From positions 1 through 23,413 of IMG/VR virus record IMGVR_UViG_3300021142_000185: DNA of 23,413 nt; one strand, given 5' to 3'. Both the position numbers and the translations under genes were made by a program. Source of the DNA: a virus. The stretch's first letter is position 1. Each line of letters begins with the position of its first letter. Below are positions 759 to 21,019 of this stretch, piece by piece. Below the pieces are notes generated by a model. That model saw only the letters and a list, made by a program, of their open reading frames with translations. It ran no database searches and was not told the DNA's origin.

Positions 759-781
759 GCGTATTAGTAAATATAGGAAGA
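759..781 (+). promoter_or_regulatory. Putative phage RNA-polymerase promoter, copy 1
   Basis: The element GCGTATTAGTAAATATAGGA recurs at 13878 and 20997 with only small changes, always in an intergenic gap before a gene block. Aligned without gaps to the 23-nt T7 consensus, 14 positions agree, including TATAGG over the start site; by that alignment +1 is the G at 776. No sigma-70 pair of boxes is evident here. The leader to the next ATG is about 87 nt. Promoter function is inferred from recurrence, position and T7 resemblance. Confidence 0.72.
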
Positions 782-862
782 ATCATCCCATTCTGACCGC
801 TGAACTTCCCGGCGAGACGACTTAGAGACAGCTTGGGATACCCACTAAGATAAGGAATCAAA

Positions 863-1435
863 ATGTCAAGCACATTCACAGGCCCAATTCGCGTATTCAA
901 GCGCAATAACCCAACAAACAACGGCACAATCGCTCCAGATAACACTGGCGCAGTATCTGTAAACCAACAGAGCTTCATTACTAACCCAATCACTACAACC
1001 ACAGCCGGAACAACTTTGTTCACAACAGCTGACGTTGGTACAACTACAGCAACACCATACGTAATCCCAGCTGGTGCAATTATCAGCAACATTCGCTTTT
1101 TCCAAACTGTTGCAGCTGGCGGTTTAGTTGGTGGTGTTATCACTGTAGCTATTGCTCAAACTAACCCAACAACTGGTGCTGTAACTACTACCACTATCGG
1201 TACAATTACTCCTACAGCAGCTGGCGGTGTTATTTCTTATGTTCCAACAGCTACTGCAGCTACTGCAGCAATCTTGAACAACATCGGTACACTAGACGCT
1301 ACTTTGACTTTCACAGCAGCTGCAGTAACTACATTGACAAGCGGTTCTTTGAACGGCACATTTGATGTATCTTACACACCACGTAACGTTGATGGTTCAA
1401 TCACTGCCTACGGTGCTGGTTTAACTAACTCGTAA
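863..1435 (+). CDS. Small beta-rich virion protein, possibly head decoration
   Basis: The protein has 190 residues and is very rich in Thr, Ala, Val and Gly with almost no charged residues after the first 20, which fits an extended beta-sandwich virion protein. It has no signal peptide, TM helix or catalytic motif. The start is supported by AAGGAA seven nucleotides upstream of ATG. It is the first gene after the capsid gene and has its own promoter and, downstream, a hairpin, so it may be made in large amounts. Decoration or cement proteins often occupy this place, but I do not recognise the family and the role is inference from position and composition only. Confidence 0.6.
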   Translation: MSSTFTGPIRVFKRNNPTNNGTIAPDNTGAVSVNQQSFITNPITTTTAGTTLFTTADVGTTTATPYVIPAGAIISNIRFFQTVAAGGLVGGVITVAIAQTNPTTGAVTTTTIGTITPTAAGGVISYVPTATAATAAILNNIGTLDATLTFTAAAVTTLTSGSLNGTFDVSYTPRNVDGSITAYGAGLTNS

Positions 1436-1445
1436 TTAATTGCCT

Positions 1446-1463
1446 AGGGGGAGCAATCCCCCT
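1446..1463 (+). terminator. GC-rich hairpin with GCAA tetraloop; weak terminator or mRNA stabiliser
   Basis: AGGGGGA / TCCCCCT forms a 7-bp stem closed by the GNRA loop GCAA, 11 nt after the preceding stop codon. The stem is followed by TTGTTTAAC, a poor T tract, so termination would be partial at best. It may attenuate expression between the presumed decoration gene and the genes that follow, or protect the 3' end of a processed transcript. Confidence 0.45.
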
Positions 1464-1488
1464 TGTTTAACATTTAAGGAAATTAATT

Positions 1489-2301
1489 ATGGCACTCGTC
1501 ACAAATTTACAGCAAAATCCATCACCTCCTCATTCCGTAACCGTTCAAGGCGCTTATGAGCCGTTTGAACTTCAAGTGTCTCGTAACCAAATTATGGGCC
1601 ACAATACTGCAAATATTTTTGCTTACGGAACTACGCCTGCTACTGCAGGTTTATTTAGAACAGTTTGGGAAAACATGTCGACAACAGACTACGTGTTTCC
1701 TACGTCTGCGTCTACAATGACATTAGTAAGTACCGTTAATACAGATACTGCTACCATTGCAATTACCGGCTTAGATATAAATTACAACCTTCTTACTGAA
1801 AATTTGGTTTTGAATGGTACAACAGGTGTAACAACAGTTAATTCGTATTTCCGTATCAATAACATTTCGGTATCTGTAGGTTCAGCAACTAATCCTACAG
1901 GAGTTATTACGCTTGCTACTGGCGGAGTAACTTACGCACAAATCAATACACAAGTTGTTAACGGTGTTACCACCAGTATTGGTACGTCACAAATGGCTGT
2001 GTATACTGTACCTAACGGCTATACATTTTATGGGTATAGATACGGTGCATATTCGTCTTTTAACGGCAACAGTGCAAACTACACAACTTACAGAGCATTA
2101 ACAAATGCTTCTTCTGGTGTGCAAAGAGTTATTGTACAAACTCCATTTAATACCACTTATGAAGTTCAAAGGCATTTTCCTTTCCCTTATGCTAGCGGAA
2201 CAGATTTAAGATTCCAAGTTGCAAGCAGTGCCGCTACAGCCGCAGTTACTAGCGTAAACATCGGTGGTGTTTTAATCAAGAACAACGGTCAAACCGCTTA
2301 A
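1489..2301 (+). CDS. Beta-structured virion surface protein
   Basis: This 270-residue protein is rich in Thr, Asn, Val, Gly and Tyr. The stretch ITGLDINYNLLTENLVLNG, followed by RINNISVSVGS and QMAVYTVPNGYTFYGYRYG, fits a pattern I associate with uncharacterised structural proteins of marine and freshwater podoviruses and cyanophages. There is no enzyme motif or membrane segment. The start is supported by TAAGGAAATTAATT just before ATG. It lies between the presumed decoration gene and the IPT-domain gene, so a role on the head or tail exterior is likely. Family recognition is from memory, and function is unknown. Confidence 0.6.
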   Translation: MALVTNLQQNPSPPHSVTVQGAYEPFELQVSRNQIMGHNTANIFAYGTTPATAGLFRTVWENMSTTDYVFPTSASTMTLVSTVNTDTATIAITGLDINYNLLTENLVLNGTTGVTTVNSYFRINNISVSVGSATNPTGVITLATGGVTYAQINTQVVNGVTTSIGTSQMAVYTVPNGYTFYGYRYGAYSSFNGNSANYTTYRALTNASSGVQRVIVQTPFNTTYEVQRHFPFPYASGTDLRFQVASSAATAAVTSVNIGGVLIKNNGQTA

Positions 2302-2310
2302 GGCACCTAA

Positions 2311-2937
2311 ATGCCCCCCGTATATTTGGATACAAGAGGTAACTCTGTCCTATCTGTAGCGGTCTGTGACCGCTGCAATAGGAAGTTCGCCTATGTGGAC
2401 CTCATGCCAGATCCAAACTTCCCTGGCATGCGGGTGTGTAAGGACGACCTAGATAACTTTGACCCATGGCGCTTGCCTGCGCTTCAAACCGAAAACATTG
2501 CATTACGTTTTCCGCGCCCTGACGTGTCTATTGCAATTGCTCCAAATTTAATTGACCAACAAGGCGCCCCAAATACCAATGTACAGTATGACAACTTGTA
2601 CATTGAGGGTGCGCCGTACGGCCAAGCTGGTGCTCCTGGTGACTTGAACCTAAACAGTCAGTATATATCCGCACCACCCCCACTATCGCCAGCGCTCTAC
2701 AACATTAGTCCAATTACTGGACCTAAAGCTGGTGGCACAAGCGTAACAATTAATGGCTCTAATTTTGTGAACATCACCAACATCAAGTTTGGTGGAGTAA
2801 ACGCAACGTTTACAATAAATTCACCAACACAAATTGTAGCTACCACCCCCGCATATATTGTAACCGGTCTTGTTGACGTTTCTGCCAGTTCCACTTACGG
2901 AACAGCAACGTTGCACGGAGCATTTACTTACACATAA
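2311..2937 (+). CDS. Virion protein with N-terminal Cys-knuckle and C-terminal IPT/TIG domain
   Basis: Residues 13-56 form a small module with CDRC (Cys19, Cys22), Cys43 in RVCKDD and the ending DPWRLP, then a conserved-looking ALRFPRPD segment. This resembles a common phage N-terminal module that usually has four Cys (CxxC...CxxC); here the fourth position seems to be Asp or Leu, so metal binding is doubtful. Residues 127-208 (YNISPITGPKAGG, VTINGSNF, FGGVNATF, ATTPAY) are a clear immunoglobulin-like IPT/TIG fold, often found on phage surfaces, where it can bind carbohydrate. The start has AAGGCA upstream, 9 nt after the previous stop. The next gene begins 6 nt after its stop codon. Confidence 0.65.
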   Translation: MPPVYLDTRGNSVLSVAVCDRCNRKFAYVDLMPDPNFPGMRVCKDDLDNFDPWRLPALQTENIALRFPRPDVSIAIAPNLIDQQGAPNTNVQYDNLYIEGAPYGQAGAPGDLNLNSQYISAPPPLSPALYNISPITGPKAGGTSVTINGSNFVNITNIKFGGVNATFTINSPTQIVATTPAYIVTGLVDVSASSTYGTATLHGAFTYT

Positions 2938-2942
2938 AATAA

Positions 2943-4166
2943 ATGGCAAATTTACCGATAACGCAACTACCCGTAGCAACAAGCCTAACCGGCATAGAGC
3001 AAACGGTTGTAGTACAAAATGGTGTAACAAAACAGGCGTCTGTTTCCCAGATCGCCAATGCTGCCTCGCCCGGCAAATTAATTACCAATATTATTTACGA
3101 CCCAACAACGGGTAACCTAACCATTTATTTTAGCGACGGATCAACCGAGGTTGTCGGTCCTGTTTCTGGTTCTTCAGGCTTTTCTGGATACTCTGGTATT
3201 TCTGGCTTTAGTGGCTACTCTGGCATCTCTGGCTATTCTGGTAAATCCGGCTTTTCTGGCTACTCTGGCTACTCTGGTAGCGGAGTATCGGGTTATAGCG
3301 GCAGCGGCGTGTCGGGATACAGCGGTTATTCTGGCATCTCTGGATACTCTGGCACTTCTGGATACTCTAGCTTTAGTGGCTATTCTGGATACAGCGGTAT
3401 TTCTGGGTACTCTAGCTTTAGCGGCTATTCTGGTATTTCTGGATACTCTGGTACTTCTGGCTATTCTGGGTCTGGTGTTTCTGGTTATTCTGGGTCTGGT
3501 GTTTCTGGCTATTCTGGATCTGGCGTTTCCGGATACTCTGGCATCTCTGGATACTCTGGCATCTCTGGATACTCTGGCATCTCTGGATACTCTGGTACTT
3601 CCGGATACTCTGGCTACTCTGGTATTTCTGGGTACAGTGGTACTTCTGGATACTCTGGTACTTCTGGCTACTCTGGATCTGGTGTTTCTGGCTATTCTGG
3701 ATCTGGTGTTTCTGGCTATTCTGGCATTTCTGGATACTCTGGCATCTCTGGATACTCTGGCATCTCTGGATACTCTGGCTACTCTGGTACTTCTGGATAC
3801 AGTGGTACGTCAGGATACAGCGGGTACTCAGGATTCCCCGCAACAATTTTAACCGCCAGCATTACCACCGCAACAACCATTACACCAACTCCAAACACGG
3901 CTACTCAATACGAAGTAACCGCGTTGGCAACTTCGGCAACAATTGCAACTCCCTCTGGAACTCCAACAGACGGACAAAAATTAATTATTCGCATTAAAGA
4001 TAACGGAACCGCACAAGCACTTACTTGGACAACTACCAGCGGCGCGTATCGCGCGGTTGGTGTAACGTTGCCGGTAACAACGGTTGCGGGTAAAGTTTTA
4101 TATATTGGTTGCATTTATAACAGTCAAGATACTTTTTGGGACGCAGTAGCAACCGCGCAACAATAA
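2943..4166 (+). CDS. Collagen-like tail fibre protein 1
   Basis: The 407-residue protein has three parts. Residues 1-72 (LPITQLPVATSLTGIEQTVVVQNG) are the attachment-type N-terminus common in phage fibre proteins. Residues 75-298 are collagen-like Gly-X-Ser/Thr triplets (GYS, GIS, GTS, GFS) without proline. Residues 299-407 are a compact beta domain ending in FWDAVATAQQ. In homologous fibres such repeats form rigid trimeric rods. The triplet register is broken by seven Gly-Ser-Gly steps (GSGVS) and two Gly-to-Ser changes (GYSSFSG). No strong Shine-Dalgarno is visible (ACATAAAATAAATG), so translation may depend on the upstream gene. A role in host recognition is inferred from the family type. 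Confidence 0.78.
   Translation: MANLPITQLPVATSLTGIEQTVVVQNGVTKQASVSQIANAASPGKLITNIIYDPTTGNLTIYFSDGSTEVVGPVSGSSGFSGYSGISGFSGYSGISGYSGKSGFSGYSGYSGSGVSGYSGSGVSGYSGYSGISGYSGTSGYSSFSGYSGYSGISGYSSFSGYSGISGYSGTSGYSGSGVSGYSGSGVSGYSGSGVSGYSGISGYSGISGYSGISGYSGTSGYSGYSGISGYSGTSGYSGTSGYSGSGVSGYSGSGVSGYSGISGYSGISGYSGISGYSGYSGTSGYSGTSGYSGYSGFPATILTASITTATTITPTPNTATQYEVTALATSATIATPSGTPTDGQKLIIRIKDNGTAQALTWTTTSGAYRAVGVTLPVTTVAGKVLYIGCIYNSQDTFWDAVATAQQ
3163..3836 (+). repeat. Collagen-like coding repeat, 9/18-nt periodic
   Basis: About 75 copies of a 9-nt unit of type GGNTAYTCT/GGNATYTCT run in one frame. Some 18-nt units (GGATACTCTGGCATCTCT) are repeated identically in tandem, near 3530-3590 and again near 3730-3778, as part of a larger duplicated block coding for GSGVS-GYS-GSGVS-GYS-GIS units. 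Near-identity at DNA level implies recent expansion or gene conversion and probable length variation. The periodicity also creates long meaningless ORFs in other frames. Confidence 0.9.
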
Positions 4167-4339
4167 TGGTAATTGATTACACAATCACACAAAACGGGTA
4201 CACATTTAGCGATGCACTAATCCTAGATGATGACAACACGCTTACGCCTGAAGAAATTGAGGCAATGAAGCAAGCCCGTTTTGATAAGTGGTACAAGATT
4301 ATTACCACTCCTGTAGATAACCCTGTGTTTCAGGAATAA
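4166..4339 (+). CDS. Small fibre-linked protein of 57 residues
   Basis: The ATG shares its A with the TAA stop of the collagen-like fibre (TAATG), which points to translational coupling and is why I prefer this start over an in-frame ATG 30 nt upstream inside the fibre gene. The product begins MVIDYTITQNGYTFSDALILDDD and contains LTPEEIEAMKQARFDKW. It is acidic with one amphipathic helix. Similar short proteins beginning TITQNGYTFSDAL occur beside fibre genes in other phages as far as I recall. The function is unknown; a fibre chaperone or a small virion component are possibilities. Confidence 0.62.
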   Translation: MVIDYTITQNGYTFSDALILDDDNTLTPEEIEAMKQARFDKWYKIITTPVDNPVFQE

Positions 4340-4342
4340 TAA

Positions 4343-7072
4343 ATGGCTAACAGATATTGGGTTGGCGGTACAGGAACTTGGGATGCTACCGCTGGTACTA
4401 AATGGGCAACAACTTCTGGTGGTACTGGAGGTCAGGCCGTTCCTACAACTGCTGATAACGTATTTTTTGATGCTAATTCAGGTGCTAATACAGTAACTAT
4501 TGGTTCTGGAACAGCAATATGTAATGCACTAAATATAAATGCTTTTACAGGAACATTAGCATTTGGAACAAACAGCATCACAATATCTGGCAATAGTGCT
4601 TTTATGTTTAGTGGTGGAAGTGGCTATACATTAACTGGTACTCCGTTGTGTATATTAAACTCTACTAGCACAACTGGAACTAGAACTATATCCCCAGGTG
4701 GTGCATCTGAAGCCAATTCAATGAGTTTTAATATTACTGGCGGAACAGACACAATTACATCAAGCACCACTGCGGGTACAGCAACTTTTAAAAACTTAAA
4801 TCTTACAGGATTTGCAGGGACATTTGCAAATACTACTAAAACAATTTATGGTGATTTAACTCTACCTTCTAGTGGTTCAGGTGCAACAATATCCGCTGGT
4901 GTTAATACAATAACATTTGCATCTACTTTAGTCCAACAAAACATAACCAGTAATGGTTTTACAATGGACTTTCCTATTACAGTGTCGGGAACACAAACAG
5001 TTCAGCTTGTAGGTAATTTAACAATAGGCTCAACTAGAACATTTACTTTTACATCTGGCAATTTAAACTTAAATAACAATACTTTAAGTTGCGGAATATT
5101 TAGCTCGACAAACTCTAATACTCGGTCGATTGCTTTTGGTACTGGAAATATTACACTTACTGGCAATTCTGCTACTGTATGGGCTATGAGTACTGCTACG
5201 GGGTTTACTTTAACAGGCACACCTCAAGTTAATTTAACTTATTCAGGCTCTACAGGTACAAGAACAATATCTCATTCAAATACGGCTGGAGCTGTAGGAG
5301 AACTTGGTGCTATTAGTTTTACTTTTTCTGCATCAAGTGATGCTATTACTCTAACAAGTAATAGTTTTATTAAAAACTTAATATTTAGTTCTGGTTCTAC
5401 TAATACAGTTGCAAACTCAACAATATATGTTTATGGAAATTACACATTAGCTTCTGGCATGACATTGACTGCTGGAACAAATAACACAACATTTCTTTCT
5501 GGTTTAAGTACACAGCAAAACATTACCACCAACAGCGTCACACTTGATTTTCCAGTTTTTATAGGAGCAAGTATAACCCCTACTGGTATTACTGGTAGTG
5601 GTAGCACAGTCACAGTAACATATGCATCAACTTCAACATTTCCTGCAGTCGGCTCAACAATTACTGTAGCAAACGTAGTGCCATCTGCATATAACGGCAC
5701 TTTTACTGTAGTTTCATCATCTAATACAGGACTTACTTATTCAAGTTCTGCAACAGGAACAGTAACTACTTTTGGAACTGTTAGTCTAGCTAGTTGTACA
5801 GTTCAGCTTCAAGACGCAATGACTATGGGTACTAGTAGGACATTAACTTACAATAGCGGAACATTAGACTTAAACAGTAAAACGCTTACTACAGGATTCT
5901 TTTCAGCTAATAATGCTGCTCCTCGTAATATTTTATTTGGTACAGGACAAATTAACGTAGCAGGTAGTAATGGCAGTGTTTGGTCAAGCAGTAGTGCAAC
6001 AACGGTTCCATTTACTTACACGGGCACAAGTAAAATTAACTGCACTTATTCTGGCTCTGTAGGAACAAGAATTATAGGTGCCCAACAACAAACAGAAGCA
6101 AACGCACTTAACTTTTACATTACTGCTGGTTCTGATAACTTTCAAATTAATGGAAGTCGTGGCTATCAAACAATAGACTTTACTGGTTTTACCGGAACAT
6201 TCGGTTTAGTTCCAGCTAGTACAGGTAACGCAATTATTTATCAAAATCTTGTATTACCAGCAGCAGGGGTCGCTACAGGATTTGGTGCAAACAGCGCAAC
6301 ATACGGATTTAGTTTTAGTTCAGCAACAAATAGCCAAACATTTACTAGCAATGGTTATTCATTAGACACTACTATATTAAAACAAGCCGCAGGAAGTTTG
6401 ACATTAGTTGGGCCATTAACTTTAACATCTTCTGTTAGCACAGGGCAATTTACACTTTCTGGTGGAACATTTAGCACAGCTGGATATGCATTAAACTGCG
6501 CAATATTTAACTTTCAAAATACTGGTACTAAAACATTAACTTTAACTAATAGCACAGTAACTATTTCTGGCGGTACTTCTAATTCAGGATTTTCTGGTTC
6601 AAACACTAATACAACTTACAATTTAACAGGTTCAAACATTGTATTTACTAGCTCTGCTACTACATTTTTTAATGCTCCACTAGGCGTATTTCCTCAAGTT
6701 ACTATGGGTGGTACTGGAACACTTAATATTGGTCAAGCATCTGCTTCAAACACAATTACAACCTTAACAAATACAACACAGCCTTGTACTATCTCTTTAT
6801 TGGCAACTGCAACACAGCTTAATGTAACCAATTTAAATTTAAATGGTACGGCTGGCAATTTAGTTACATTAAATAGCACAGTATCAGGAACACAAGCTAC
6901 TATTAGTAAAACAAGCGGTCAAGTATCTGTCAACTATTTAAACATTCAAGACAGCAAAGCTACCGGCGGTGCTGCGTGGGACGCTTACTATTCCACCGAT
7001 TCTGGAAATAACACAGGCTGGTTTATCTCGTCAAACCTGTCAAACTTTTTAAATTTATTTGATAAACGATAG
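4343..7072 (+). CDS. Large beta-repeat tail or fibre protein
   Basis: The 909 residues begin MANRYWVGGTGTWDATAGTKWATTSGG, a pattern I recognise from phage structural proteins, and end in NNTGWFI followed by a short tail. The body is a low-charge Thr/Ser/Asn/Gly sequence with repeated landmarks: TGTRTIS near residues 111 and 304 and GTRII near 574; QQNIT at 198 and 391; M/LDFP at 208 and 401. The first two units are 193 residues apart. The next is about 270 apart because an extra module of about 70 residues (GITGSGSTVTVTY...PSAYNGTFTVV) is inserted near 411-480. A beta-helix or stacked beta-sandwich is expected. The DNA is more AT-rich than the neighbouring fibre gene. Likely a tail fibre or tail-associated protein; receptor binding is inference. 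Confidence 0.65.
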   Translation: MANRYWVGGTGTWDATAGTKWATTSGGTGGQAVPTTADNVFFDANSGANTVTIGSGTAICNALNINAFTGTLAFGTNSITISGNSAFMFSGGSGYTLTGTPLCILNSTSTTGTRTISPGGASEANSMSFNITGGTDTITSSTTAGTATFKNLNLTGFAGTFANTTKTIYGDLTLPSSGSGATISAGVNTITFASTLVQQNITSNGFTMDFPITVSGTQTVQLVGNLTIGSTRTFTFTSGNLNLNNNTLSCGIFSSTNSNTRSIAFGTGNITLTGNSATVWAMSTATGFTLTGTPQVNLTYSGSTGTRTISHSNTAGAVGELGAISFTFSASSDAITLTSNSFIKNLIFSSGSTNTVANSTIYVYGNYTLASGMTLTAGTNNTTFLSGLSTQQNITTNSVTLDFPVFIGASITPTGITGSGSTVTVTYASTSTFPAVGSTITVANVVPSAYNGTFTVVSSSNTGLTYSSSATGTVTTFGTVSLASCTVQLQDAMTMGTSRTLTYNSGTLDLNSKTLTTGFFSANNAAPRNILFGTGQINVAGSNGSVWSSSSATTVPFTYTGTSKINCTYSGSVGTRIIGAQQQTEANALNFYITAGSDNFQINGSRGYQTIDFTGFTGTFGLVPASTGNAIIYQNLVLPAAGVATGFGANSATYGFSFSSATNSQTFTSNGYSLDTTILKQAAGSLTLVGPLTLTSSVSTGQFTLSGGTFSTAGYALNCAIFNFQNTGTKTLTLTNSTVTISGGTSNSGFSGSNTNTTYNLTGSNIVFTSSATTFFNAPLGVFPQVTMGGTGTLNIGQASASNTITTLTNTTQPCTISLLATATQLNVTNLNLNGTAGNLVTLNSTVSGTQATISKTSGQVSVNYLNIQDSKATGGAAWDAYYSTDSGNNTGWFISSNLSNFLNLFDKR

Positions 7073-7090
7073 TCAATTTTTTACTTTTTT

Positions 7091-7113
7091 GCGTATTAGT
7101 GGTAGTAAGATGA
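7091..7113 (+). promoter_or_regulatory. Degenerate copy of the phage promoter, copy 2
   Basis: The first ten bases GCGTATTAGT are identical to the three full copies. The part that should read NNNTRTAGGA is changed to GGTAGTAAGA; aligned without gaps, 16 of 23 positions match copy 1. A TATAGG does occur, but 18 bases further on. It could be a weakened promoter, a decayed one, or a site reshaped by indels next to the glycosyltransferase module. Confidence 0.45.
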
Positions 7114-7119
7114 TATAAT
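7111..7119 (+). promoter_or_regulatory. Sigma-70-like extended -10 box (TGATATAAT)
   Basis: TGATATAAT is a perfect extended -10 element 30 nt before the ATG of the glycosyltransferase gene. At 17-bp spacing the -35 region is GCGTAT, a poor match, but extended -10 promoters tolerate that. It would give host RNA polymerase access to the modification genes independently of the phage promoter system. AT-rich DNA produces such boxes by chance, so this remains a candidate. Confidence 0.45.
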
Positions 7120-7122
7120 ATA

Positions 7123-7136
7123 GGTTCGTACGAACC
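7123..7136 (+). promoter_or_regulatory. Perfect 14-bp palindrome GGTTCGTACGAACC
   Basis: The site is fully self-complementary and sits between the promoter-like elements and the ribosome-binding site (AAGGAAAAT) of the next gene. As DNA it is a typical size for a dimeric repressor operator just downstream of a start site; as RNA it could form a 5-bp stem with a GUAC loop at the 5' end of the message. No protein partner can be named from this window. Confidence 0.45.
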
Positions 7137-7148
7137 CGTAAGGAAAAT

Positions 7149-8369
7149 ATGAAATACAGCATTGTAATACCAACTTACAATAATTGTGAGAAGTACTTAA
7201 AGCCGTGTGTAGACTCGATTATTAAGTACACCGACTTGACCGATGTAGAGCTGATTATCAGCGCCAACGGGTGTACAGATAACACAGATAAGTACATTAA
7301 CTATCTGGCAAGCGCAATACCCCACTTTGATGCTATTTGGGATCCGGCACCCGCTGGGTTTGCAGTGGCTACAAACAGGGGCATTAAAAAGGCTAAGGGG
7401 GACAAAATCATCCTCCTTAACAACGACACCCAGCTATTGGGGCCAAATTGGATTGAGAAGTTAGACAGTGGTGCTGATATTTGCTCTGTGTGGACGCAGT
7501 TCTCACCCATTACCCAGCGTCGTTTTGCGGTGTTCTTCTGCGTGTTAATTGACGCCAAGGTGTTTAAAACCATTGGCTACCTTAACGAAGAATACAGCAC
7601 CGGTGGCTGTGAGGACATTGAGTTTTGCCTAAAAGCCCAAGATGCTGGGTTTACGATGGACGCAAACTGGGATAATGGTCAGTTTCCAATCTACCACAAG
7701 GCCGAGGGCACGATGCACGACCCGCAGCTGGTACAAGACTGGGGCAACAAGTTTTTGCTAAACGAACTTCGGTTAGCAAAGCAATACAACTTAGACTGGT
7801 ACCGCTGGCGCCTGTCAAACAACTACGAGCGGGCAGTATTCCTCAAAGGTGATCCAGTGTTTCCCCGTGAAACCCAAAGATACGAGTGGGCAGGGAAAAA
7901 CGTACTACCGGGCTCGGTGCTTGAGATTGGATGCTCTACAGGCTACGGTTACCAGTTTTTAAACACGCAAGCCTACATGGGTTTGGACTACGACCCAATT
8001 ATTATAAACGTAGCCAAAGAACAACAGTGGTCTGATAACGCAACGTTTTACCAAGCTGACATCAATACGTTTGATTTGGGGCGCTATGGCACGATTATAG
8101 CGTTCGAGGTAGTGGAGCACCTAGACAACGGCCTACAAGTCGTAGAGAGGCTAAAAGGGCACTGCAAACGCCTTTTAATTACCGTGCCTCACAACGAGCC
8201 AAAAGGCTTCTGGGGAGAGCACCACAAGCTGCATGGGTTGACTGAAAAAGACTTCCCTGGATTTACGTTTGAGTACATCGACTTTGAGGGTAACATTTCC
8301 TCGGTAATGCGCCAAGTAGACCAGAGCAATCCGGGCAACTTGATGATCTGCAGGTGGGACAATGAGTAA
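7149..8369 (+). CDS. Bifunctional glycosyltransferase (GT2) - SAM methyltransferase
   Basis: Residues 1-220 are a GT-A fold family 2 glycosyltransferase: YSIVIPTYNN at the start, PAGFAVATNRGI, the metal-site motif LLNNDT (NND 91-93) and the acceptor-side GCEDIEFC (153-160). Residues 250-406 are a class I methyltransferase: motif I VLEIGCSTGYG (257-267), the acidic residue after motif II in MGLDYD, then FEVVEHLD and LLITVPHNEP. One polypeptide could therefore transfer a sugar from a nucleotide-sugar donor and methylate the glycan. The start has AAGGA upstream. It opens a three-gene sugar-modification cluster and overlaps the next gene by 8 nt. The likely target is a virion glycoprotein or a cell-surface glycan; the substrate is unknown. 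Confidence 0.82.
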   Translation: MKYSIVIPTYNNCEKYLKPCVDSIIKYTDLTDVELIISANGCTDNTDKYINYLASAIPHFDAIWDPAPAGFAVATNRGIKKAKGDKIILLNNDTQLLGPNWIEKLDSGADICSVWTQFSPITQRRFAVFFCVLIDAKVFKTIGYLNEEYSTGGCEDIEFCLKAQDAGFTMDANWDNGQFPIYHKAEGTMHDPQLVQDWGNKFLLNELRLAKQYNLDWYRWRLSNNYERAVFLKGDPVFPRETQRYEWAGKNVLPGSVLEIGCSTGYGYQFLNTQAYMGLDYDPIIINVAKEQQWSDNATFYQADINTFDLGRYGTIIAFEVVEHLDNGLQVVERLKGHCKRLLITVPHNEPKGFWGEHHKLHGLTEKDFPGFTFEYIDFEGNISSVMRQVDQSNPGNLMICRWDNE

Positions 8370-9336
8370 AGTACTATGTTCCGTGGCAACACGGGGTAGG
8401 TACTTCACAACACTGCCCTTAGTATTAAATGCCATCATTAACCAATCCAAGCCGGTTGATAAGCTGATTGTCTACGATGACAATGACGAGCCGCAGGACA
8501 TGCGAAAAGAGTTTTTGTACCAGCACTTTTTTCAGATGTTAGATATTAAGGGTGTTGCATGGGAGTGGCAGTACGCTGACAAAAAAGGTCAGCACCACAT
8601 CCACCAACGAGCCAACCTAGCGGGTTTTGATTGGGTTTGGCGCGTTGACGATGACGCGGTACCTGAGTACAATGTACTAGAAGAGTTGTATCGTTGGATT
8701 GATATGTGGCCCGATTTGGGTGCTGTGGGTAGTCATATTTGGACACCACCAAACATACCAAACACCGCTGGCATAACTGGACGAATTGATAACATTGATT
8801 CAGAACCAAACATCCAGTGGGGCAAGTTTAATGTAGCCCAAGAAGTTGATCATCTACACTGTTCATTTTTATATCGTGCTGGTGTGGCAGATTATAATTT
8901 AGGACTATCTAGGGTAGCGCACAGAGAAGAGACGTTGTTTACTTTTCAGCTGCAGCAAAAAGGTTACAGCATTTTAGTAGTACCAAACGCCATTACCTGG
9001 CACATGAAGAATCCTGACGGCGGGATTCGTAGCGAGACAAGGAAGGAAATGTATGAGCATGATGAGCAGATTTTTAGAAATATTTTGCAGTACCGTGATC
9101 GTACCATTGTGGTTCTCAATTGTGGCCTTGGTGACCATATTGTATTCAGCCGCATACTTCCTTCAATACCTAACGCTGAAGTTTTTAGTTGTTACCCTGA
9201 AGTGGTTCCCGGCAGGTCAATAGCAGAGGCAGTGCAGCTATTTGGTGATCTTGACCCGTGGAACGTCTACAAGAAGATGAACCAGTGGAAGTGGAAAGAT
9301 AGTTTAGAAAAAGCATACCGGAAGATGTACTTATGA
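8362..9336 (+). CDS. Glycosyltransferase family 2 with C-terminal GT9-like segment
   Basis: Residues 1-240 look like a GT-A enzyme: VLCSVATRGRY, KLIVYDDND, WVWRVDDDAVPE with the DxD-type motif DDD (96-98), HREE (187-190) and the late TWHMKNPDGG. Residues 247-324 then change character: RTIVVLNCGLGDHIVFSRILP contains GLGDH (255-259), which is the N-terminal signature of GT-B family 9 heptosyltransferase-like enzymes. The missing GT9 C-terminal domain is coded by the next gene, which overlaps this one as ATGA. The two products may form a split enzyme. Sugar transfer is well supported; donor and acceptor are not known. Confidence 0.75.
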   Translation: MSKVLCSVATRGRYFTTLPLVLNAIINQSKPVDKLIVYDDNDEPQDMRKEFLYQHFFQMLDIKGVAWEWQYADKKGQHHIHQRANLAGFDWVWRVDDDAVPEYNVLEELYRWIDMWPDLGAVGSHIWTPPNIPNTAGITGRIDNIDSEPNIQWGKFNVAQEVDHLHCSFLYRAGVADYNLGLSRVAHREETLFTFQLQQKGYSILVVPNAITWHMKNPDGGIRSETRKEMYEHDEQIFRNILQYRDRTIVVLNCGLGDHIVFSRILPSIPNAEVFSCYPEVVPGRSIAEAVQLFGDLDPWNVYKKMNQWKWKDSLEKAYRKMYL

Positions 9337-9773
9337 TTATCATCTCCCCGTATGCACAAAAACTAAGAACAAATAAAGAAAACCCAAAAAACTATCCATA
9401 TTGGGAACAACTTGTACAAGAATTGCAAAAAACTATACATGTTGTGCAAATTGGCGTTGAGGGTGAAAAGCAATTAGTACCAGATTTTAGAAAGAATTTA
9501 CCGATTCCAGCTTTGCGAGAATTACTATGGCAATGTAAGACATGGATTGGAGTAGATAGTTTTTTTCAACATTTAGCTTGGGATGAAGGAGTACCCGGCA
9601 TCGTATTATGGGGGCCATCTGATCCGCTGATATTTGGACACCCAGAAAATATTAACCTACTAAAAGACCGATCATGTTTAGTAGAAAATCAGTTTATATG
9701 GTGGGAGGCCACCGAACACAGTAACGATCGCTTTGTAAAACCAAAAGAAATATTAGAGCACCTAAAGGAATAA
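9333..9773 (+). CDS. GT9-like C-terminal glycosyltransferase domain, stand-alone
   Basis: The 146 residues begin IIISPYAQKLRTNKENPKNYPYW and contain VVQIGVEGE, then WIGVDSFFQHLAWDEGVP and LWGPSDPLIFGHPEN. The latter two correspond to the donor-binding half of heptosyltransferase-type GT9 enzymes (DS, H and GPSDP at 75-98). A normal GT9 has an N-terminal Rossmann domain before this; here only a short GLGDH-bearing candidate is present, at the end of the upstream protein. ATG overlaps the upstream stop (ATGA), so translation is coupled. The DNA is AT-richer than the fibre gene that follows. The enzyme may act in complex with the upstream protein, or be a degenerate GT9. Confidence 0.68.
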   Translation: MIIISPYAQKLRTNKENPKNYPYWEQLVQELQKTIHVVQIGVEGEKQLVPDFRKNLPIPALRELLWQCKTWIGVDSFFQHLAWDEGVPGIVLWGPSDPLIFGHPENINLLKDRSCLVENQFIWWEATEHSNDRFVKPKEILEHLKE

Positions 9774-9776: not shown

Positions 9777-11558
9777 ATGGCCCAATCCGGCTACACACCA
9801 ATTTCGTTGTACTACAGCGCCACCTCTGGGGTTGCCCCGACGGCAGGCAACCTTGTAAACGGTGAGCTGGCACTTAACATCACCGACGGCAAGATGTACT
9901 TTAAGAACACCAGCGGCGCAGTAACACTGCTTGCCTCCGTAGCTGGCGCTGCGGCAGCAGGCAATCTATCGGGTGGCACATCAGGCCAAATCCCTTACCA
10001 AAACGGTGTAAGCTCCACTGTGTTTATGGCCGCACCAAGTGTGTCTGGCACTTATCTTGGATGGAACGGTAGTGGCTTTTACTGGACATCTTCTACCGGC
10101 GCATCTGGTTTTAGTGGTTTTAGCGGCTTTAGTGGATATAGTGGCGGGACAGGAACTAACGGAACGTCTGGTTACAGCGGCCTTTCTGGCTACTCGGGCT
10201 ACAGTGGCTCTGGCGTGTCTGGTTACAGCGGCTCTGGCATCTCAGGTTACAGCGGCTTTTCTGGATACAGCGGTATTAATGGTTCTAGTGGTTCTTTAGG
10301 CATCTCGGGATACAGTGGATTTTCTGGCTACAGCGGATCTGGAGCCTCTGGTTACAGCGGTATTAGTGGCTACTCTGGTCAAAACGGATCAGCGGGTGCG
10401 TCGGGTTTTAGTGGATACTCTGGTTCAACGTCTTACACCGCAACCAACTTATCTGGCGGTTTTGTAAGCGCAACCAGTATTGCCTACACCACCACGTTAA
10501 CTGGCGGTACTGGTATTGTTAACTTAGGTTCTGGTCAGTTCTATAAAGACGCCAGCGGCAACGTGTCGATTGGCTCTACGTCTACGCCAGCCACCTTGTA
10601 CGTCAAGGGCGGCAACTCAAACAACCTGTCAATTGATAACGGTGGCCAGCAATATACCACTGTGTCACTATACAACAACGGCACCGAAAAGGCGCAGATG
10701 TACTGGGACCAAACCAACACGCTGTTCGTGTTTGGTACGGACGTAGGCGCACCGGTGGTGTTCAAGGCAGCTACCGTGGAGCGTATGCGCATCTCTAGCG
10801 CTGGCGGCGTGTCGATCGGCACGTCAACAGACGCGGGCGCAGGCAACTTGCTAGTAAACGGCACGATAAATGGTACAACAATAACAGCCTCTACTCAGTT
10901 TAGTGGTCCAGGTACTGGGTTAACAGGAACTGCCGCTGGATTATCAATTGGAGGAAACGCGGCCACAGCCACAACAGCAGCAAACGGCGGCGTAACTTCT
11001 GTTAATGGTAGTACAGGAGCTGTGTCTCTACCTGCAGCAGTCGGTGTGCTCGGCCAAGTCTTTACAGCTAACGGAACATTTACAGTTCCTGCTGGAGTTA
11101 CAGCAGTTAAAGTATCTATATGTTCTGGTGGTGGCGGCGGCGGTGGCGGTGCATTTTCAGGAGCTACTAGTGGTGGGTCTGGTGGTTCATCGTCTTTTGG
11201 CTCTTATGTAGTAATTGGAACAAGTGGAGGTGGTGCAGGGTCTAGTAATCAAAGTGCTGGAACTCATTCGGGAGCAAATGGAACAAGTGGTTCTATTACT
11301 GGCGGAACTTCGTATGTTTTGCCATCCATTACTGGGAGAGGAGGTAATGGAGTTGGGGGACAAAACACAACTCTTATTTGTTGTGGAACTACTCCATGCA
11401 CAAACATTGGTGGGGTTGGTGGTTCGTCTAGCACAGTCGGCTATGTAACTGGTTTAACTCCTGGTGGCTCAGTTACTGTAACTGTTGGTGCGGCTGGTAC
11501 TGCTGGTAGTCCTAATGGTACTGCTGGTGTAGCTGGTTTTGTTCTGATTGAATGGTAA
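9777..11558 (+). CDS. Collagen-like tail fibre protein 2 with glycine-rich tip
   Basis: The 593 residues begin SGYTPISLYYSATSGVAPTAGNLVNGELALNITDG, in the style of many phage fibre N-termini. Residues 110-217 are collagen-like Gly-X-Ser triplets (GFS, GYS) with GSGVS, GSGIS and GSGAS register breaks. A middle part (ERMRISSAGGVSIGTSTDAGAGNLLVNGTI) is the fibre or spike pattern often seen before a tip. The C-terminus (VFTANGTFTVPAGVTAVKV, then an eight-Gly run, GGVGGSSSTV and VAGFVLIEW) is the glycine-rich domain of phage adhesins, comparable in composition to polyglycine-II tips of T4-like gp38 adhesins. AAAGGAATAAAAC precedes ATG. It is the best candidate here for the receptor-binding tip. 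Confidence 0.78.
   Translation: MAQSGYTPISLYYSATSGVAPTAGNLVNGELALNITDGKMYFKNTSGAVTLLASVAGAAAAGNLSGGTSGQIPYQNGVSSTVFMAAPSVSGTYLGWNGSGFYWTSSTGASGFSGFSGFSGYSGGTGTNGTSGYSGLSGYSGYSGSGVSGYSGSGISGYSGFSGYSGINGSSGSLGISGYSGFSGYSGSGASGYSGISGYSGQNGSAGASGFSGYSGSTSYTATNLSGGFVSATSIAYTTTLTGGTGIVNLGSGQFYKDASGNVSIGSTSTPATLYVKGGNSNNLSIDNGGQQYTTVSLYNNGTEKAQMYWDQTNTLFVFGTDVGAPVVFKAATVERMRISSAGGVSIGTSTDAGAGNLLVNGTINGTTITASTQFSGPGTGLTGTAAGLSIGGNAATATTAANGGVTSVNGSTGAVSLPAAVGVLGQVFTANGTFTVPAGVTAVKVSICSGGGGGGGGAFSGATSGGSGGSSSFGSYVVIGTSGGGAGSSNQSAGTHSGANGTSGSITGGTSYVLPSITGRGGNGVGGQNTTLICCGTTPCTNIGGVGGSSSTVGYVTGLTPGGSVTVTVGAAGTAGSPNGTAGVAGFVLIEW
10104..10425 (+). repeat. Second collagen-like coding repeat
   Basis: A Gly-X-Ser coding array is shorter and less regular than that of the first fibre and uses more AGC/AGT serine codons (GGYTACAGCGG). 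It is interrupted by GGTGTNGTS, GINGSSGSLG and GQNGSAGAS stretches. The difference in codon choice suggests that the two fibre genes are not a recent duplication of one another although the repeat logic is the same. Confidence 0.8.
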
Positions 11559-13255: not shown

Positions 13256-13304
13256 AATACAGGCTATAGCCGATAATTGCAAAATACAAGCTATAGCCTG
13301 TATT
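13256..13304 (+). promoter_or_regulatory. 15-bp perfect inverted repeat in the endolysin leader
   Basis: AATACAGGCTATAGC and GCTATAGCCTGTATT form a perfect 15-bp stem with a 19-nt loop, directly after the Rz stop codon. Because the core GGCTATAGCC is itself palindromic, the same bases also make an 18-nt direct repeat (AAAATACARGCTATAGCC at 13254 and 13281, one mismatch). No T tract follows, so it is not a standard terminator. It may be a processing or stabilising hairpin, or a double operator controlling lysozyme expression. Confidence 0.6.
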
Positions 13305-13314
13305 GACCCCCTAA

Positions 13315-13346: not shown

Positions 13347-13868
13347 ATGAAAAAGCTATTTGTAGTACTTTTATGGGTGTTGGGCATATTTGCCGCCATC
13401 CACTTCACAGATAAATACACCAAAATTGAAGAAAATATCATGGCCATTGCTAAATCCACTTTAGACTTTATTACCAAAGAAGAAGGCGCCCGTAACAAGG
13501 CATACAAAGATACCAAAGGTCTATGGACCATTGGCGTAGGTCACCTTATTAAAGATGACGAAAAAGACCTTATTAACGCCACCCTAACTAATGACCAGGT
13601 AGAAGAGCTTCTTAGAAGCGATTTAAAGTGGTGTAGCGAGGCCGTAGAGAGCTCGGTGAAGGTACCCCTTAGCCAGAACCAATTTGACGCCTTATACAGC
13701 CTGTGCTTTAATATTGGAGCTACAGCGTTTAAAAACTCCACTGTAGTAAAACGCATTAACGCAAACGACCTAAAAGGCGCTGCGGATGCAATCTTGATGT
13801 GGAACAAACCCGCCGTTTTAGAAAATCGCCGCAAACGTGAAAAAGAACTATTTTTAGGGGCAATTTAG
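13347..13868 (+). CDS. T4-type lysozyme (GH24) with N-terminal membrane anchor (SAR-like)
   Basis: This muramidase cleaves the peptidoglycan glycan backbone. The catalytic arrangement of T4 lysozyme, Glu-(8)-Asp-(5)-Thr, is present as Glu46, Asp55 and Thr61 in EEGARNKAYKDTKGLWTIGVGH. Before it lies KK, a hydrophobic helix at 4-20 (LFVVLLWVLGIFAAIHF) and a linker, suggesting a signal-anchor-release endolysin or a plain type II anchor. A second in-frame ATG at codon 32 (13440), preceded by GAAGAAAATATC, would give a soluble 142-residue T4-like enzyme. AAAGGAG precedes the first ATG. The gene stands apart from the coupled holin-Rz genes behind a leader with two inverted repeats, so its expression may be separately timed. 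Confidence 0.88.
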   Translation: MKKLFVVLLWVLGIFAAIHFTDKYTKIEENIMAIAKSTLDFITKEEGARNKAYKDTKGLWTIGVGHLIKDDEKDLINATLTNDQVEELLRSDLKWCSEAVESSVKVPLSQNQFDALYSLCFNIGATAFKNSTVVKRINANDLKGAADAILMWNKPAVLENRRKREKELFLGAI

Positions 13869-13877: not shown

Positions 13878-13900
13878 GCGTATTAGTAAATGTAGGACTG
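13878..13900 (+). promoter_or_regulatory. Putative phage RNA-polymerase promoter, copy 3
   Basis: GCGTATTAGTAAATGTAGGA differs from copy 1 by one base (TATAGG to TGTAGG) and is 9 nt after the lysozyme stop codon. Flanking bases are shared too: TTTAG before it, and ATCATCC at the same distance after the predicted start G at 13895. The leader to the next ATG is about 42 nt and contains the ribosome-binding site CGAGGAAACACA. Confidence 0.72.
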
Positions 13901-14795: not shown

Positions 14796-14963
14796 ATGCC
14801 ATACAAATCGGAAAACCAGCGAGCCGCAATGTACGCCGCAGCCGCTGGTAAATCAACAATTGGAATACCTAAAAAAGTCGGTAAAGAATTTGTCAAAGCA
14901 GGACCAAGTTCTAATAACCTACCCAAAAAAGTAACTAAGCGAGCCGCGGGCCGCGGAAGGTAA
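14796..14963 (+). CDS. Small basic protein of 55 residues ([16 protein letters not shown] type)
   Basis: The start ATG lies 1 nt after the upstream stop and has AGGTAAG upstream; an in-frame GTG nine codons earlier would overlap the previous gene and is less likely. The product begins [20 protein letters not shown], includes [14 protein letters not shown] and ends in a KRAAGRGR basic tail. Short proteins of the type MPxKSxxQRxxMxAAA are widespread in phage structural regions, of unknown function. The charge suggests nucleic-acid contact or a helper role. Confidence 0.62.
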
Positions 14964-14964
14964 C

Positions 14965-16032: not shown

Positions 16033-16033
16033 C

Positions 16034-16627
16034 ATGTTCTATACATACGCGCACACTAAACCAAATGGGACTATTTTCTATATTGGAAAAGGTATTAAAA
16101 GACGTGCGTGGAAAACACACAATAGAAATTTACATTGGAAATCTATTGTACAAAAACATGGAAGTTTTAATGTTGAAATTTTAGCTAATTGGGATACTGA
16201 AGAAGAAGCCTTTAGTCATGAAGTATTATTAATTAAATGTTTTAATGATTTAGGATATTCATTAGCTAATAAAACAAATGGTGGTGAAGGTGCTTCTGGT
16301 TATAAACACTCAGATGAAACTAAATTAAAAATGAAACATATAACATCTGAAAAAACAAAACAAAAAATTAGTATTGCTAGAAAAGGTAAATATTGCGGAA
16401 AAAATCACCCTAGATTTGGAAAAATTGTTTCTCAACAAACTAGAGAAAAAATGAGAATTGCTAATGCTGGCGGAGCCAATAATCCCCAAACACGAAAAAT
16501 CAAATTTAATGATGTTATTTTTACCGGAATACAAACATTAGCAGATTTTCAAAAATTACATTACAAAACAATTGCATATAGAATAAAAACAAACCCTGCA
16601 AAATGGGGATACGAGGTTTTAAAATGA
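16034..16627 (+). CDS. GIY-YIG homing endonuclease, free-standing
   Basis: The N-terminus FYTYAHTKPNGTIFYIGKGIKRRAW carries the GIY-YIG module (YTY at 3-5, FYIGKG at 15-20, Arg23/24), with Glu63 as the likely metal-binding residue. Residues 88-147 contain NUMOD3-like DNA-binding repeats (HSDETKLKMK, SEKTKQKISIARKGK, SQQTREKMRIANAGG), and the end resembles a NUMOD1-type helix-turn-helix (FTGIQTLADFQKLHYKTIAYRIKTN). The DNA is clearly more AT-rich than its neighbours, which indicates transfer. It has no own Shine-Dalgarno and starts 1 nt after the adaptor stop codon, so it may be read by re-initiation. Such genes copy themselves into related phages lacking the insertion by cutting near the site. 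Confidence 0.85.
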   Translation: MFYTYAHTKPNGTIFYIGKGIKRRAWKTHNRNLHWKSIVQKHGSFNVEILANWDTEEEAFSHEVLLIKCFNDLGYSLANKTNGGEGASGYKHSDETKLKMKHITSEKTKQKISIARKGKYCGKNHPRFGKIVSQQTREKMRIANAGGANNPQTRKIKFNDVIFTGIQTLADFQKLHYKTIAYRIKTNPAKWGYEVLK

Positions 16628-17238: not shown

Positions 17239-17241
17239 TAC

Positions 17242-18546: not shown

Positions 18547-20706
18547 ATGGCGGCTGATAATCAGCAACAGGACAACTCGCAGTACACTTCAATTTACAGC
18601 CTAGCAATACCGGCTGGGATTAAGCGCGACGGTACACAGTTTCAAAACGACCAGTATACCGACGGCGTGTGGTGTCGTTTTCAGCGTGGTGACCCTAAAA
18701 AAATGGGTGGCTACCGCACACTGTTTACCAGCAATATTGGAATCTATCGTGGCTTGATTTCACAGCCATACAACGGCGTCAACTATATTTTTGCTGGTAA
18801 CTACAAAGAGCTAGACGTGTTTACCTGCGGCATTACATATGGCACAGGTAGTGGTCCTTTTGCGGCAAATATTTTACCCGGTACTGTTCAATTTACGTTG
18901 GTATCAACTACCAGCACTACTTTTGTTATCAAAGGTGATGTGCGGTCTAGTTTTCCTACAGGCACAACGGTTATATTTAATCAGACAACGCCAGTAAATT
19001 ACATTACAACTGGCACACCAACCTATACATCCCCCAACACAACAGTAACAGTAACCACCACCATTACCGGCAGTCCGACAAGCGTATGGTTAAACAACAG
19101 CGCGGTATTTACAGCAGACCCAACAGCTGGGCCATATAGGATTACTTGGCAGTTTGATTCTCAGTTTAGCCCGCTAGGTGGTAACCTTTCCCTGTTTGCT
19201 CACCCAGGGTACAACTTAGTTGATATTGACAACGGTGTTCCATCACAAGTATTGGTTGGTAATGTTTCACCGAGCACTGGAAACAGTTGGACGTTTACTG
19301 GACTATCAGATAGCTCCGGCGCAAACCCAACCTATCAACCCATTAGCGTTGATGGTGGTGTAACTGTGTTGTATCCGTTTATATTTGTATACGGATCACA
19401 TGGCTACATTGCAAACAATAACGTTAGCAGCACATACTTACAACAAAACTTTTACGATTGGAACGGTACCTTAGCTAACCAAGTTAACGTATCTTCATCC
19501 AAAATTGTTAAGGGCATGCCAATGCGTGGTGGTACTAACTCACCAGCTGGTTTGTTCTGGGCAACTGACTCTTTGATTCGTGTTTCATTTAACTCCTCTG
19601 CTTCTAGTACAGCAACTACTAGCCAGTTTTGGAACTATGATATTATTTCTAGCCAAATCTCTATCATGTCGTCTAACGCCGTGGTTGAAATGGACGGTGT
19701 GTACTGGTGGATGGGTGTTGACCGTTTTTATGCTTATAACGGTAGTGTTACAGTAGTGCCAAATGACAAAAACATAAACTACTTATTTGACAACATTAAC
19801 TATTCACAGCGCCAAAAAGTATGGGCCACTAAGGTGCCACGCTACAACGAAATTTGGTTCTTTTATCCACGTGGCACTGCTACTGAGTGTACTGATGCTA
19901 TTATTTATAATACAAAAGATAAGCTATGGTATGACGCTGGGCAGGCACAAGGAGCACAACGTTCTTGTGGATATACCACCGAGATTTTTCCAACACCTAT
20001 TTGGTCGGATTGGAACTATACCCCAACATTTAGCGCACCATACACCACTATAACAAACCCAGCAAGTTTGCCAGCAGCGGGCGCAAATCAAATTTATATT
20101 GCGGGCGATGTAACTTCAGTATTTAGCCCTGGTAGTATCCTGACCTTTTCACCAACTTCTGGTGCTTTGGCAACATTTCAAGTAACTGCTGTGGTTAATA
20201 CATTCAATACCACTATCGGAACCCCTGGCGTTACTTTGGTAACGTTTACTGGTTCTAGCACCGTTACTCCCGCCGCTGGTACTTTGGTATACAAACAAAA
20301 TGGTGGCTACACAATTTGGCAGCATGAATACGGCCAAAATAAAGTTGGCTTAACCGGTGAAACTGCCGTGTATTCCAGCATTACAACAAGCGATATTAGC
20401 TGGTTAACTGGTAACCCAAGCCAAGACGGTTTAATTGGGGTCAACCGCCGTATGCACCTACGCCGCGTGGAGCCAAACTTCTTACAGACTGGCACCATGT
20501 CTATGACCGTGTTAGGTAGGAAGTTTGCAAACAGCCCAAACGAAGAGGATTCTGGACCATTTTACTTTGATCCCGATACCGATAAAATAGACCTTCGTAT
20601 TGAGCACCGCTTAATTCGACTACAATTCACATCAAACCAAATTGACGGCAACTTTGAAATGGGTCGTTTGCTTATTACCTGCGAGTTTGGTGATGAGCGG
20701 CCATGA
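18547..20706 (+). CDS. Packaged-DNA stabilisation / tail hub protein, P22 gp10-like
   Basis: The N-terminal segment IPAGIKRDGTQFQNDQYTDGVWCRFQRG and KKMGGYRTLF, and the core VEMDGVYWWMGVDRFYAYNG, KVPRYNEIWFFYPRG and LWYDAGQAQGAQRSCGY, fit the phage stabilisation-protein family I know from podovirus-like genomes, comparable to P22 gp10, a beta-propeller-type tail hub that closes the head after packaging. Two insert-like modules, about residues 116-187 and 512-583, share the pattern [FY]xIxGDVxSxFxxG and may be one domain present twice. The C-terminus (INRRMHLRRVEPNFLQ style, then RLIRLQFTSNQIDGNFEMGRLLI) is a beta domain. The start directly follows the previous stop, and the stop overlaps the next gene (ATGA). 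Confidence 0.7.
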   Translation: MAADNQQQDNSQYTSIYSLAIPAGIKRDGTQFQNDQYTDGVWCRFQRGDPKKMGGYRTLFTSNIGIYRGLISQPYNGVNYIFAGNYKELDVFTCGITYGTGSGPFAANILPGTVQFTLVSTTSTTFVIKGDVRSSFPTGTTVIFNQTTPVNYITTGTPTYTSPNTTVTVTTTITGSPTSVWLNNSAVFTADPTAGPYRITWQFDSQFSPLGGNLSLFAHPGYNLVDIDNGVPSQVLVGNVSPSTGNSWTFTGLSDSSGANPTYQPISVDGGVTVLYPFIFVYGSHGYIANNNVSSTYLQQNFYDWNGTLANQVNVSSSKIVKGMPMRGGTNSPAGLFWATDSLIRVSFNSSASSTATTSQFWNYDIISSQISIMSSNAVVEMDGVYWWMGVDRFYAYNGSVTVVPNDKNINYLFDNINYSQRQKVWATKVPRYNEIWFFYPRGTATECTDAIIYNTKDKLWYDAGQAQGAQRSCGYTTEIFPTPIWSDWNYTPTFSAPYTTITNPASLPAAGANQIYIAGDVTSVFSPGSILTFSPTSGALATFQVTAVVNTFNTTIGTPGVTLVTFTGSSTVTPAAGTLVYKQNGGYTIWQHEYGQNKVGLTGETAVYSSITTSDISWLTGNPSQDGLIGVNRRMHLRRVEPNFLQTGTMSMTVLGRKFANSPNEEDSGPFYFDPDTDKIDLRIEHRLIRLQFTSNQIDGNFEMGRLLITCEFGDERP

Positions 20707-20972
20707 CGATTTACGTAAATAAAAACAACCAGCAATTCTTTCCGTTTGTGCCGGATCAGTCTAGCTGGGAGGATTGGAACGGTAACTTTATTATCTACTA
20801 CGGTCAGTTAAATATACCATACCACACCGAAGAAAACTGGAAAAGCACCGCAGAAATTATTGCTAGTACGTTTACCTTCTCTGCTTTTCCAATTCCGGAC
20901 CCAGACCGCTACGAAAACTGGCAGGATTGGGCTAAAGAAGTAACTTTGATTATTAACGGTAAGAGTCACTAA
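20703..20972 (+). CDS. Small protein following the tail hub gene
   Basis: The 89 residues (MTIYVNKNNQQFFPFVPDQSSWEDWNGNFIIYYGQLNIPYHTEENWKSTAEIIASTF, then AFPIPDPDRYENWQDWAKEVTLIING) are rich in Trp, Tyr and Asn and appear globular. ATG overlaps the stop of the tail hub gene (ATGA), so it is translationally coupled and probably made in proportion to it. I recall similar small proteins in the same place in other phages, but no function. A minor tail component or assembly helper is the most economical guess. Confidence 0.6.
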   Translation: MTIYVNKNNQQFFPFVPDQSSWEDWNGNFIIYYGQLNIPYHTEENWKSTAEIIASTFTFSAFPIPDPDRYENWQDWAKEVTLIINGKSH

Positions 20973-20996
20973 TCTAGGGCAAAAAGCCCCAAAAAC

Positions 20997-21019
20997 GCGT
21001 ATTAGTGTATATAGGAACA
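20997..21019 (+). promoter_or_regulatory. Putative phage RNA-polymerase promoter, copy 4
   Basis: GCGTATTAGTGTATATAGGA matches copy 1 in 18 of 20 positions, with the two changes in the three-base spacer. The predicted start G is 21014, which leaves a very short leader of 19 nt before the next ATG. It drives the small gene and the large ejection-type protein at the right edge. Confidence 0.72.

Follow-up and report, generated by a model that had tools for sequence, protein, structure and literature searches.

Sigma factors with reduced or divided domains

In phage phiEco32, the sigma factor gp36 lacks region 4 and serves promoters with a single element, tAATGTAtA, ahead of middle and late genes, and transcripts start 6-8 bases downstream of this element (PMC8948821). 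Phage 7-11 has a sigma factor, gp47, that is unrelated to that of phiEco32 and is paired with different promoters at similar positions, and the authors predicted further such pairs (PMC8948821). The gp47 promoters have the form GTAAtg-(16)-aCTA, and this sigma, acquired independently and with 15% identity, possesses a region 4 (PMC8948821). Late transcription of T4 depends on gp55, gp33 and gp45, of which gp33 has no sequence-specific DNA binding (PMC2988020, PMC7892883), and in Bacillus subtilis, SigO-RsoA is a cellular sigma factor of two subunits (PMC8103513).

The DNA considered here (the window) is a virus contig of 23.4 kb that carries the end of a capsid gene followed by tail fibre, glycosyltransferase, lysis and head-tail genes, all of them on the plus strand. 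Like the promoters of the phages just named, those of the window can probably be assigned to a small sigma factor of the phage, and as related phages encode two diverged forms of this factor, the pairing of sigma and promoter can be followed from one phage to the next.

Promoters of the window

An earlier note on this DNA had placed the repeat GCGTATTAGTNNNTRTAGGA at 759, 13878 and 20997, and an exact search confirms these copies on the plus strand, each in a gap between plus-strand genes. A fourth copy at 7091, in the gap 7073-7148, had been overlooked; it differs from GCGTATTAGTNNNTRTAGGA at two positions, both outside the core. With up to three mismatches allowed, the window holds five matches to GCGTATTAGTNNNTRTAGGA against 0.07 expected from shuffled sequence, and the fifth of these lies on the minus strand at 1893, within a gene and without the core. 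The core itself, the 10-mer GCGTATTAGT, is found exactly at 759, 7091, 13878 and 20997, always intergenic and in the direction of transcription, that is four times on the plus strand and never on the minus strand, against a mean of 0.06 and a maximum of 1 in 300 shuffles. The repeat is real and, judging by the sequence, a promoter family, although the earlier description as a family of the late region was too narrow, because the element also precedes replication genes in relatives.

Promoter 1 (759-775, plus strand) has its core at 759-768, the spacer AAATAT, and a predicted +1 at A775, which leaves 88 nt of 5' leader before the gene at 863. Its -35-type element, AGGGCG, is at 738-743 on the plus strand (-37 to -32), and just upstream, after the capsid gene, the same strand reads as an intrinsic terminator at 708-730 (GCCACC-CACAA-GGTGGC, then T6). 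By alignment, this promoter has homologues in the related records G002, G009, G010 and G004, and also, with a switched core, in G015; the -35-type element is invariant, as AGGGCG/GGGGCG, in the six-genome alignment. Promoter 2 (7091-7107, plus strand; core 7091-7100, spacer GGTAGT, predicted +1 A7107) is upstream of the glycosyltransferase genes that begin at 7149, has no GGGC at -36 and is conserved in G005, G002 and G011. Promoter 3 (13878-13894, plus strand; core 13878-13887, spacer AAATGT, predicted +1 A13894) precedes the gene at 13937 and has GGGGCA at 13857-13862 on the plus strand as its -35-type element. Promoter 4 (20997-21013, plus strand; core 20997-21006, spacer GTATAT, predicted +1 A21013) precedes the gene at 21033 and has AGGGCA at 20976-20981, again on the plus strand.

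Some other features of the window are recorded here in their own right. A long inverted repeat, AATACAGGCTATAGC...GCTATAGCCTGTATT, occupies 13257-13305 in the intergenic stretch ahead of the endolysin gene. An ORF at 16034-16627, between two structural genes, has a GIY-YIG-like start (YTYAHTKPNGTIFYIGKG) and is likely a homing endonuclease. The tail proteins contain long collagen-like GYSG/FSG repeats (2943-4166 and 9777-11558).

Promoter profile and transcription start

Relatives were gathered both by the motif and by a structural protein of 719 residues, and several whole records were read. Terminal repeats mark two of them as probably complete genomes, G004 (65.8 kb) with repeats of 127 bases and G010 (65.6 kb) with repeats of 90. 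The long relatives, these two included, contain 8-14 exact copies of GCGTATTAGT each, in the late and replication blocks and nearly all within -60 to +200 of the start of a codirectional gene.

A profile of 206 distinct sites and contexts shows the core GCGTATTAGT with a weakly AT-rich flank upstream, and downstream a pyrimidine at position 16 (99%), an A at position 17 (97%) and a G at position 19 (82%). In 53 of the 206 sites an ATG follows exactly 6 nt after the core, and any other offset is used by at most 16. From this register of ATG and YA over all 206 sites the transcription start is inferred at the A six bases downstream of the core; read in the simplest way, position 17 is +1 and the pyrimidine is -1, so that the core spans -16 to -7. 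Sigma regions 2 and 3 touch the DNA in this part of a promoter. Many messages would then be leaderless, as the predicted first base is in 53 sites also the A of the ATG. K-mer counts that ignored strand orientation gave other repeats and no promoters, and were abandoned; in the literature, no paper was found that describes GCGTATTAGT in the sense of a promoter.

A short sigma factor in two clades

The long relatives encode a sigma-70-type factor of about 189 residues that comprises regions 1.2, 2 and 3 and ends just after region 3. Region 2 (PF04542) is over the cut-off in all six records that cover the locus, region 4 (PF04545) gives no match over the cut-off in any record, and the protein falls into PHROG 351 (sigma factor). 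Its best PDB relatives, in sequence as well as in predicted fold, are SigA, SigS and factors of that kind. Among annotated phages there is no sigma that is more than 38% identical, and bacterial genomes searched with the phage sigma yielded remote cellular sigma factors only (25-44%). The Caulobacter phage GB2A and ctpbd312, which are distant structural relatives, have neither the motif nor this sigma in the parts of their records that were covered. The gene that follows the sigma gene (36973-37296 in G010) was considered as a frameshifted region 4 and rejected; it has no such similarity and is absent from G008 and G015.

Eighty sigma loci were collected, and the sigma factors fall into two clades by identity to the sigma of G010, clade I with 74-100% and clade II with 50-56%. 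The sigma gene of the window's own phage lies outside the window, and we infer that it belongs to clade I by way of two further records: G005 matches the window collinearly, at 90-96% identity, for most of its length, and it overlaps with L202, which encodes a clade I sigma, at 100% over 6761 bp.

Co-variation of sigma factor and promoter

The promoter core switches with the sigma clade. Of 32 clade I loci, 31 contain GCGTATTAGT, and the one that does not is a piece of 4.8 kb. None of the 49 clade II loci contains it; 46 of these have TTGCATTA[G/A]T in its place, and three lack an exact copy of that core. The clade II elements were found by a strand-aware search of the regions upstream of genes without any prior assumption, and have the form TTTGCATTAGT, in G015 TTTGCATTAATA. 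The copies of TTGCATTAATA in G015 occupy sites that are homologous to those of clade I promoters, and the flanks can still be aligned. Within the sigma factors, residues of regions 2.4 and 3.0 differ consistently between the clades, RIPIK-REE as against RLPIN-ME, and these are the regions that in known sigma factors read the -10 and the extended -10 element.

Shared ancestry alone is not sufficient to explain this, because the promoter types interleave when contigs are ranked by the similarity of a structural gene to that of the window (19 contigs with the clade I type, 41 with the clade II type, 2 with both and 18 with neither). G015 and G017 have the sigma and the core of clade II and a structural gene 80-81% like that of the window, and the clade I phages G010 and G004 have a structural gene that is only about 68% and 59% like it. 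The promoters of each contig fit its own sigma, and the promoter type thus tracks the sigma and not the structural genes. The strength of the argument lies in the switching of a whole set of promoters and not in the number of loci, because independent events are few, as there are few clades and the loci are not independent. It is most likely, on this comparison, that sigma and promoters have changed together in related phages.

Probable order of the transcription programme

Among loci with 4 kb or more of sequence upstream of the sigma gene, 21 of 22 in clade I and all 36 in clade II are free of a codirectional core within the 4 kb before it, and the first one downstream of the gene follows usually after 0.7-1.3 kb. 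The divergent late block begins 3.5-7 kb away on the other side. The motif-free stretch before the sigma gene agrees with an early phase of transcription by the holoenzyme of the host, after which the phage sigma would turn on replication and late genes.

Two further repeats were seen in this part of the genomes. In clade II, GTTTAAAC palindromes are scattered over the early genes ahead of sigma, many of them immediately in front of an ATG (GTTTAAACATG), as seen in L243 (18 positions from 166 to 9740, mostly before the sigma gene at 10001), L274, L256, L266, L249 and L251; they are absent from the window and probably serve early genes as an operator or start element. TGCCACACTT repeats form two clusters (5641-5944 and 11682-11988 in L196, 3971-4311 and 11316-11628 in L222) that flank the early and sigma region at a distance of 6-7 kb with near-identical internal spacing, and are possibly iterons or duplicated origins.

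Altogether, the element is very probably the extended -10 promoter of a phage sigma-70-type factor that acts on the host RNA polymerase. The sigma of about 189 residues would be made early, from a transcript that lacks a promoter of this kind, would join the host core enzyme and would itself recognize GCGTATTAGT at -16 to -7, opening the promoters for a start at the A six bases downstream (A775, A7107, A13894 and A21013 in the window). It would thereby turn on the replication genes downstream of its own gene as well as, in the divergent direction, the operons of the window for packaging, head, lysis and tail. The late promoters would need, or gain strength from, [A/G]GGGCG at -37 to -32, the reader of which would be something other than the sigma, possibly a small phage protein that resembles region 4. 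This explanation is based on the motif, its register, the co-variation with the sigma, and the lack of any detectable RNA polymerase of the phage. Against it stand the position of the sigma gene outside the window, the -35-type element of late promoters although the sigma has no region 4, the three clade II loci without the exact expected core, and the two structural contigs with both core types.

The second element and its possible reader

The hexamer [A/G]GGGCG is found at one upstream offset only, -37 to -32, in 66 of the 206 sites, and GGGC at that offset is present in 82 of them and in three of the four promoters of the window. Single genomes have it at 3-7 promoters, several of which are unrelated, and also have core-only promoters, and in G015 it is unchanged although the core has switched. 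GGGC...GCCC as an upstream hairpin or terminator was rejected, as the GCCC half is weak and variable and AGGGCG is fixed in register. A sigma that lacks region 4 is not expected to recognize [A/G]GGGCG, and the sigma alone is therefore not the whole story; another factor may read the element, and a small region-4-like protein of the phages is the tentative candidate.

This protein has about 101 residues, is conserved in both sigma clades, and its gene is preceded by a core promoter that lacks GGGC and predicts a leaderless message. Its C-terminal half is confidently predicted to be helical, and when the predicted fold was compared by Foldseek, each of the 14 best PDB matches was a sigma region 4 domain or a sigma factor, at E values of 0.18 or worse; Sigma70_r4_2 gives a weak match in 12 of 30 members of the family. 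A diverged paralogue (30%) was seen in L211 at 9030-9269, just before the sigma gene at 9814. It can be imagined that the sigma function is split in these phages, with a region 2-3 protein that suffices for core-only promoters and the region-4-like protein as the reader of [A/G]GGGCG that is needed in addition for the late ones. Such a split would account for the single offset, for the recurrence at unrelated promoters of one genome and for the constancy in G015, but no single fold match is significant, a profile-profile comparison with sigma region 4 was not above shuffled columns, a PDB profile search with the protein found no sigma, its turn is shorter than that of a normal region 4, and another protein could read the element as well. 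We therefore regard the split as a possibility that is somewhat more likely to be wrong than right. Marginally less probable still is the full sequence of events that it would allow, in which the region 2-3 protein, made early, opens the promoters that have only the core, one of these yields the AGGGCG reader, and this turns on the late genes, the -10 half having switched across the phage group together with all its promoters and the -35 half having stayed fixed.

Core-only middle promoters often have a palindrome, TTTCACA-TGTGAAA, in place of AGGGCG, which may be the site of another regulator. TTTCACAnTGTGAAA-like palindromes about 30 bases before the core were seen at middle promoters of G004 (1406, 14394), G009 (21509, 36084), G008 (23406) and G011 (11212).

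Other readings of the element

The element could also be an operator or activator site at ordinary host sigma70 promoters and not the -10 element itself, as activator sites can be conserved and codirectional and as the middle promoters do carry the TTTCACAnTGTGAAA-like palindrome upstream. The core is, however, placed at -16 to -7 with a fixed distance of 6 nt to the predicted start, where sigma regions 2 and 3 bind, its sequence switches with the clade of the phage sigma, and no TTGACA-type element is seen at the -35 positions of the profile, all of which makes the operator quite unlikely compared with the sigma-dependent promoter.

In the earlier note the repeats were taken for T7-type promoters, served by a single-subunit RNA polymerase of the phage with a new specificity loop and encoded outside the window. 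The single compact element at -16 to -7, the AT-rich start region and the TATAGG over the start of some copies agree with this, and the count of 14 matches in 23 positions for copy 1 was arithmetically correct, but the likeness is no better than chance. The other three copies match the T7 promoter at 9, 10 and 12 of 23 positions, and the score over the 206 sites in relatives is mostly 7-12. Likeness to T7 is uninformative because shuffled windows hold on average 12.3 places with at least 14 of 23 matches, and the window holds 7. The TRTAGGA part is moreover the weakly conserved half of the promoter family. As to the polymerase, the Pfam profile RNA_pol (PF00940) matches nothing in the window, which is a fragment of a genome, and nothing in 30 of the 31 related or motif-carrying records, G004 and G010 with their terminal repeats included. 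Its one strong match (E 2e-85) is in G027 and serves as the positive control; this record of 36,983 bp and 32.5% GC is apparently unrelated, has a T7-type polymerase, and contains a single exact GCGTATTAGT inside a gene, which looks like chance. The large early and middle proteins examined in the relatives are a primase, SNF2 helicase, exonuclease, RNR and PolA, and the large late ones are tail fibre, portal, terminase and tape measure, so that no candidate for a polymerase is among them. A T7-type system is thus very improbable; what holds of the prediction is that a specificity factor encoded by the phage very probably lies outside the window. A multisubunit polymerase of the phage was rejected, as none of its subunits was found in the relatives.

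Significance

A global regulator and its dozen promoters have to change in concert, and a stepwise route to this is difficult to picture. Related freshwater phages, dozens of them and all uncultivated, comprise two sigma clades and three forms of the promoter at homologous positions, and structural genes have been shuffled among them; the co-evolution of regulator and sites thereby becomes testable within one phage group, as a natural record of how a viral genetic switch was rewired. The core also gives a sequence test for the assignment of late operons in these phages, and the comparison supplies a set of likely leaderless phage messages as well as a candidate for a two-part phage sigma.

Comparison with known systems

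By analogy of features, phiEco32 appears to be the closest described case to the phage sigma discussed here, with T4 gp55 and its partner gp33 as the other precedent. PhiEco32 shares the podovirus-like layout with a divergent late block, the sigma without region 4 and the single-element middle and late promoters. It differs in the element, tAATGTAtA as opposed to GCGTATTAGT, and the phages considered here have in addition the fixed -35-type element at late promoters and many apparent leaderless starts; their sigma is closer to primary sigma factors. Where phiEco32 starts 6-8 nt downstream of its element, the ATG and YA register here predicts a start at the A that lies six bases downstream of the core. 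Sigma factors of the gp55 and gp36 kind do without a -35 element, whereas here a late subset has [A/G]GGGCG at -37 to -32 next to promoters with the core only.

Phage 7-11 is similar in that a phage sigma and its promoters keep their positions while the sequences differ from those of a relative, but its sigma was acquired independently and with region 4, whereas the two sigma factors here are homologous (50-56%), and the pair would have diverged rather than been replaced. Like T4 gp55, the sigma here is a small protein of the sigma family without region 4 that would serve a -10-type promoter, and T4 needs a second protein at the flap, but gp33 has no sequence-specific binding, and here a conserved sequence is found at -35. 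If the two-protein reading of the late promoters holds, there would also be a likeness to SigO-RsoA, where the activities of sigma 2 and sigma 4 reside on separate proteins; that system is cellular and not of a phage, and in the phages considered here regions 2 and 3 remain on one protein, with no more than a candidate for the second half. What sets these phages apart from these precedents, as far as the sequences can tell, is that homologous sigma factors and their promoters appear to have diverged in step, with apparent leaderless starts and with a fixed -35-type element beside a sigma that has no region 4.
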